Source of the DNA: Candidatus Uhrbacteria bacterium
Lineage (GTDB): Bacteria > Patescibacteriota > Patescibacteriia > JACQRZ01
Length of the DNA: 34,172 bases
Reading direction: 5' to 3'
Assembly: GCA_016186045.1 (NCBI GenBank)
Contig: JACPMJ010000030.1
Location: forward strand, 1 to 34,172
This document shows, piece after piece, positions 31,961-32,559 of this stretch; within the stretch, counting starts at the first letter, position 1, and each line of letters starts with the position of its first letter. The notes under the pieces are model-generated. The model made no database searches, was not told the DNA's origin, and saw only the letters and a program-made list of their open reading frames with translations. A program made the position numbers and the translations under genes.

Positions 31961-32559
31961 TTGACAGCAATCCCACCCCCTGCTACACTCCCTCTTGTCC
32001 ATATCTGAAAGGATTTGGATGGAGCGACCCGGAGAACATCCGGGGATTCGTGACTCGCTCGCCCTCGCAGGTGTAGTGGATGTGTTTCCTTGGAGATACA
32101 TACGCTTGGCACCAGACCCGGGGGAAAACTCGAGGTCGGATACGACCGAGACCCCAGTGAAAACTGGGGCCCAGTATTTCCGGCTTTTTCATGGCTGAGC
32201 CATGAACCTCCAGAGAAATGCCCTCCAAGACCTCACGCAGAGGCGTTGGAAAAGAAGTGACATTTTTTAGAGGTTGTCAGTTCTTTTCCAATTTTCAAGG
32301 AGTGTATCTTCTGTCATTCCCGACTCGATCGGGAATCCAGTATTCACTCTGGAGGGGGTAGTCACTCTGTTGGGGTTTACCTTATGTCCCATCCAGTCGT
32401 TCAACCCCAACCTCTGGAGGGGGTAGTCACTCTAGGAAAGGGAATCGCGTCTGCTTCTATCGTCGTTCAACCCCATACTTCTACTTAAGACTGGATTCTC
32501 GGGTCAAGCCCGAGAATGACACACATACCTCGTCATAATGATGAGGTTTTTTATTTTTT
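31961..32559 (+). ncRNA. Repeat unit 2: promoter, structured RNA, hairpin, REP, two variable modules, terminator
   Basis: TTGACA (31961)-N17-TACACT (31984); homologous body; terminator CCTCGTCATAATGATGAGG-T tract at 32528-32559. Confidence 0.75.
32347..32475 (+). repeat. CRISPR-like variable module in unit 2 (two cores, one complete 38 nt repeat between them)
   Basis: CTCTGGAGGGGGTAGTCACTCT - N27 - GTCGTTCAACCCCAACCTCTGGAGGGGGTAGTCACTCT - N28 - GTCGTTCAACCCCA. Confidence 0.6.

Follow-up and report, generated by a model that had tools for sequence, protein, structure and literature searches.

The window, by which we mean the whole stretch of 34,172 nucleotides analysed here, belongs to a Candidatus Uhrbacteria genome of 927,653 bp that is 91.6% complete. 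Towards its end lie three units on the forward strand, built of a promoter, a structured RNA of about 220 nt, one or more repeats with unrelated cores of 30-32 nt, and a terminator. Unit 1 follows the order of unit 2 but has a single spacer, and unit 3 is interrupted by the contig end. Features are listed under the names of the reading argued for below.

30614..30642 (+): unit 1 promoter, TTGACA-17-TACACT with extended -10 TG, the same in units 2 and 3
30649..30872 (+): unit 1 putative tracrRNA body, from covariance models R1/R2
30926..31074 (+): unit 1 hairpin-loop insertion, a palindromic element with 81% identity to the sister copy 28623-28771
31161..31179 (+): unit 1 5'-truncated CRISPR repeat, identical to 32347-32365 and 32412-32430
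31180..31211 (+): spacer 1 (unit 1), 32 nt, without match
31212..31222 (+): unit 1 closing repeat, its degenerate start, GTCATTCAACC
31322..31342 (+): unit 1 terminator-like hairpin
31961..31989 (+): unit 2 promoter, TTGACA-17-TACACT with extended -10 TG, from its pattern
31996..32218 (+): unit 2 putative tracrRNA body, from covariance models R1/R2; homologues in G027, G071, G116 and G137, weaker in G683
32050..32055 (+): anti-repeat GTGACT, pairing with the repeat 3' end AGTCAC; covarying pairs at five loci
32206..32215 (+): second anti-repeat, ACCTCCAGAG, whose complement in the repeat is CTCTGGAGG(G)
32347..32365 (+): unit 2 5'-truncated CRISPR repeat
32366..32395 (+): spacer 2 (unit 2), 30 nt, matching a phage-like island at C3:52029-52055 (27/27)
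32396..32430 (+): unit 2 complete CRISPR repeat, 35 nt, GTCGTTCAACCCCAACCTCTGGAGGGGGTAGTCAC
32431..32461 (+): spacer 3 (unit 2), 31 nt, without match
32462..32475 (+): unit 2 3'-truncated closing repeat; truncated closing repeats also occur at other loci
32527..32547 (+): unit 2 terminator-like hairpin
33913..33941 (+): unit 3 promoter
33948..34172 (+): unit 3 putative tracrRNA body, interrupted by the contig end, from the covariance model

The three bodies are 92-98% identical, and three promoters, two terminators and two anti-repeats are intact. An earlier note on this DNA had placed a promoter and a terminator around unit 2; both are confirmed, the same pair occurs in unit 1, and the sequences named in that note are present where it had located them. 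The RNA of the unit folds much more strongly than shuffled sequence (z -6.8), and the structured RNA has no match in Rfam.

Further elements were observed around the units. An imperfect, MITE-like palindrome of ~150 nt is found in the unit 1 loop (30926-31074) and again upstream of an ABC transporter gene (28623-28771). The arrays are flanked (31124-31158, 32487-32521) by a REP-like palindrome, GTCATTCTCGGG...CCCGAGAAT, of which the genome has about 30 copies; one of them stands immediately 5' of a truncated first repeat. Between units 1 and 2 (31414-31897) lie two small ORFs, one of 85 aa without a Pfam match and one encoding a DUF2283 protein, which possibly form a toxin-antitoxin-like pair.

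The repeats and cores have the arrangement of a CRISPR array, namely identical repeats of 35 nt and unrelated spacers of near-constant length (30-32 nt), with a period of 65 nt in unit 2. Core lengths of 32, 30 and 31 nt follow from the ends common to all repeat copies; the earlier note had rightly described unrelated cores, but its lengths of 27 and 28 nt left out a TCT common to both unit 2 cores (30 and 31 nt). Since these two cores are unrelated to each other, a plain tandem duplication, the note's own deflating alternative, is ruled out. The repeat is confined to the arrays of the window, no other copy being present in any contig of the 927,653-bp genome. In both arrays the first repeat is 5'-truncated, and in one of them the closing repeat is degenerate; this is consistent with decay. 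Spacers of the same array often start alike over their first 2-4 bases, as with TCT in the window (32366, 32431), TCCG in G116 (repeats at L158 7482-7656) and TG in G137. A repeat 18-mer gave one genome-contig match, which lies in what looks like coding sequence of a Rhodoferax bin and was taken as chance.

One spacer has a recognizable target. Positions 32368-32394 of spacer 2 match 27/27 nt of the organism's own genome at C3:52029-52055, a length that 60 shuffles of this core do not approach (≤15 nt). The first two positions of the spacer mismatch at the target, and the target flank is not T-rich. The match falls inside a 231-aa ORF (C3:51502-52197), to whose mRNA the spacer RNA is complementary. 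This ORF has no Pfam or PHROG match, and no relatives of its protein were found in viral contigs. Its neighbours include an RNA polymerase-domain protein matching phrog_25354 (7.8e-79) and another protein matching phrog_4652 (2.6e-19), and the block C3:45858-52197 (L086:5858-12197) is read as a phage-like island. One island protein, of 746 aa, joins Rpb2- and Rpb1-type RNA polymerase domains. The foreign matches that the earlier note had proposed to look for were obtained for one of the three spacers, from a phage-like island, and the other two are without a match. Spacer 20-mers had no match in viral contigs, nor had the spacers in phage records, and exact repeat and body patterns found nothing in viral contigs.

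Homologues of the RNA lie beyond the reach of simple sequence comparison. When the whole unit was compared with 94 relatives by BLASTN, only the scattered REP-like palindrome came up and the body was not reached, so a covariance model was needed. The model built from the three window copies (R1) and searched in 381 genomes of the class finds the body in G027, G071 and G137 (3.5e-19 to 2.8e-15), and its match in G116 has an E-value of 5e-17. A second model, applied to a 380-genome sample of the phylum, finds only the window's genome, G071 and, more weakly, G683 (8e-6). The system is rare and patchy in distribution. Arrays with a period of 65-69 nt stand 3' of the body in G116, G027, G071 and G137, the last with two arrays; in G027, G071 and G137 the spacing is 65-67 nt. 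The distant tracrRNA-like body of G683 (L170:5434-5558, minus strand) has an anti-repeat GTAACC and, following a promoter-like TTGACT, the motif GGGGATTCGTAACC; no array was seen there by eye.

The body is complementary to the repeat of its own system. In it, GGGATT[C/A] forms a conserved motif, and the GTNNC that comes next base-pairs with the final five nucleotides of the cognate repeat: GTGAC with GTCAC in the window, G137 and G116, GTATC with GGTAC in G027, and GTCCC with GGGAC in G071. All 25 cells of this repeat/anti-repeat stem are paired and two of its five pairs show compensatory change, with a score of 0.54 against at most 0.14 for slid controls, in a small sample of five loci whose short segments were excised and joined by hand. 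This covariation argues strongly for the position of the stem and gives the body what is expected of a tracrRNA, an anti-repeat that is complementary to the cognate repeat and covaries between systems. A second pairing joins the 3' part of the body to the repeat (ACCTCCAGAG with CTCTGGAGG in the window); by duplex energy the cognate repeat is the best partner in three of the five systems, and in the window's genome and G071 it is not clearly better than the others.

In three of the relatives (G137, G116 and G027) the RNA has cas genes for neighbours, a Cas12f-like effector of 650-660 aa and Cas1 being encoded near it, with ~0.1-1.5 kb between body and effector. Immediately upstream of the G137 body, with cas1 farther out, stands a protein of 656 aa that has RuvC-like and zinc-ribbon regions and matches the PADLOC Cas12f profile at 1.7e-49. 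Searching with this effector recovered homologues in G116 (58%), G027 (49%) and G311 (46-48% over two stretches), which match Cas12f with E-values of 1e-39, 2.1e-40 and 1.9e-46. The profile matched by these effectors of relatives is PADLOC PDLC01689; with the NCBIfam Cas12f2 model they score far under its cut-off. Within ~3.7 kb, G116 holds the body, cas1, an S15-like ORF, the effector and four copies of the repeat, of which the last is truncated. In G027 one contig carries the body and array beside cas1 and another the body beside the effector. In G311 the effector lies close to where a contig ends, and the genome yielded no body. Across 381 genomes the effector occurs in four and R1 matches in four, two being shared, for which chance was calculated by hand as ~5e-4.

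The S15-like ORF (92-101 aa; L150:1267-1572 and L158:8566-8844) is found in G137 and G116, where it overlaps the effector start by 4 nt, and matches PF00312 at 2.5e-4 and 8.7e-5, under the curated cut-off. Ribosomal S15 is a needed component of Cas12k transposition (PMC11127173), which makes a guide-RNA role plausible; by this analogy, the ORF could be a dedicated guide-RNA chaperone. The neighbouring Cas1 homologues (L150:436-1188, L158:7733-8494) are only ~250 aa long and match the Cas1 profile from about position 75, so that an N-terminal part seems to be missing; no Cas2 was noticed by eye among the ORFs next to them.

The nuclease site of these effectors departs from the intact RuvC Asp-Glu-Asp of Type V-F. 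Aligned with solved TnpB/Cas12 chains, all four have Ser or Thr at the RuvC-I Asp position, three of four have His at the RuvC-II Glu position (Glu is kept in G027), and the RuvC-III Asp is by eye not recognisable. Judged from these alignments, cutting looks disabled in the family. For Cas12m, whose RuvC triad is non-canonical, silencing through binding has been described (PMC10442227), and the lack of the RuvC-I Asp and mostly of the RuvC-II Glu suggests interference by binding here as well. Inactivation is a known trend among type V effectors: a transcription block has been shown for V-C and V-M (PMC12669027; PMC10442227), and subtypes V-O and V-P are both predicted to be inactivated (PMC12669027).

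Taken together, the conserved body, the arrays, the covarying pairing and the adjacent cas1 and Cas12f-like genes point to the non-coding RNA being a tracrRNA and the cores CRISPR spacers. We therefore read the units, with a probability of roughly 85%, as a tracrRNA with a very short CRISPR array of a type V (Cas12f-like) system that is rare and belongs to this bacterial class. The assignment of the RNA to this family is strong. Among the options of the earlier note, a cas-less mini-array or guide-RNA locus is borne out, as the body pairs with the repeat and homologous bodies with mini-arrays adjoin cas1 and a Cas12f-like gene elsewhere; diversification of a loop by another mechanism gained no support.

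How the system stands in this organism is a separate question from what the RNA is. A genome with a CRISPR array usually has cas genes too, though they are not strictly defining: orphan arrays exist. Cas1 (PF01867) is absent from the 927,653-bp genome, and profiles of the four effectors and of cas1 had no match at E≤10 in its six-frame translation. PADLOC, run on 117 of the genome's larger proteins, had no Cas among the best 25 families listed, and the effector-profile negative is the stronger of the two. A weak tblastn match at C14:45826 (E 0.021) was rejected as an effector candidate, its 646-aa ORF reading as a surface or secreted protein. One explanation is that the Cas12f-like protein genes are truly gone and the arrays idle or slowly decaying. 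It agrees with these absences from a 91.6%-complete genome, with the truncated and degenerate repeats, and with the G683 body that shows no array by eye. It agrees also with G071 (two contigs, ~100% complete), where a body and a three-repeat array (one copy 64% identical) are present with no effector match in the genome, so that effector-less loci do occur. On the other hand, the near-identical bodies and the intact promoters, terminators and anti-repeats speak against decay. Moreover, the contig ends inside the third tracrRNA copy, and in G137 and G027, too, contigs are interrupted at tracrRNA copies close to cas genes; cas1 and the effector may thus lie in the gap. Either the gap after 34172 holds the protein genes or they have been lost, and an idle relic appears quite conceivable, somewhat short of even odds.

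Another explanation is that the units are Cas-independent antisense RNAs whose cores silence mRNAs through base pairing, as the complementarity of spacer 2 to the mRNA of the 231-aa ORF would allow. It offers a target for only one of three cores and leaves unexplained both the repeat/anti-repeat covariation and the association with cas1 and Cas12f-like genes throughout the family, and we regard it as very improbable. The weakest alternative, a local duplication or hairpin artefact with repeats as parts of the RNA fold and cores as loops, starts from the ability of core 1 of the earlier note to pair with the repeat's AACCCCAAC, but the same architecture recurs with different sequences in four other genomes and the cores are unrelated, and since 27 of 30 nt of that core recur in a phage-like island gene, the hairpin gains no support as main explanation and the artefact can practically be dismissed.

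Within the tracrRNA and mini-array reading, Type V-F (Cas12f) is the nearest known system, sharing a compact Cas12 effector (in the relatives), nearby cas1 and a two-part repeat:anti-repeat pairing; in the published Cas12f guide RNA one duplex joins a stem-loop to the guide-proximal repeat sequence, and a second is formed by the 3' end of the tracrRNA (PMC8053092). The family differs in its effectors of 650-707 aa, against the 400-600 aa given for published Cas12f (PMC8548392), in lacking the RuvC-I Asp (4/4), in arrays of 1-3 spacers each with its own tracrRNA copy, and in the S15-like operon ORF. Type V-M (Cas12m) is alike in its non-canonical RuvC and interference by binding (PMC10442227, PMC11013384), which for the present family is inferred only, but is described with a single crRNA (PMC10442227), whereas the window's family has a tracrRNA. 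Type V-K CAST (Cas12k) resembles it in combining an inactive Cas12 with a tracrRNA, and the relatives carry an S15-like ORF before the effector; however, their effector matches Cas12f models and no Tn7-like genes were noticed by eye in neighbouring ORFs. In the long-form tracrRNA of type II-A, a natural single-guide RNA (tracr-L, PMC11417352), the anti-repeat and guide likewise share one transcript, but it belongs to a Cas9 system and its guide represses cas genes, whereas the guides of the window sit in true repeat-spacer arrays.

As a mechanism, we propose that one promoter would drive a tracrRNA-crRNA precursor, which may take the shape of a guide when its repeat and anti-repeat pair intramolecularly and would then load a Cas12f-like protein. 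Given the degenerate RuvC site of the known family effectors, and by analogy, the complex would most likely bind matching phage or mobile-element DNA and block its expression without cutting. Tentatively, and with less than even confidence, the family may constitute a distinct tracrRNA-dependent, RuvC-inactivated Cas12f-like subtype of this bacterial class with a dedicated S15-like subunit and amplified, self-contained tracrRNA/mini-array modules, which would act by binding and so silence invaders, and perhaps resident phage islands too; in some genomes an unrelated partner may serve the orphan modules.

These findings tie a previously unannotated structured RNA to a CRISPR effector family whose nuclease looks disabled, and make that family a compact, natural, tracrRNA-guided candidate DNA binder. 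The effector operon includes an S15-like gene, a parallel to the part that S15 plays in Cas12k transposons. With arrays and no effector gene found in either the window's genome or G071, the function of orphan arrays becomes testable.
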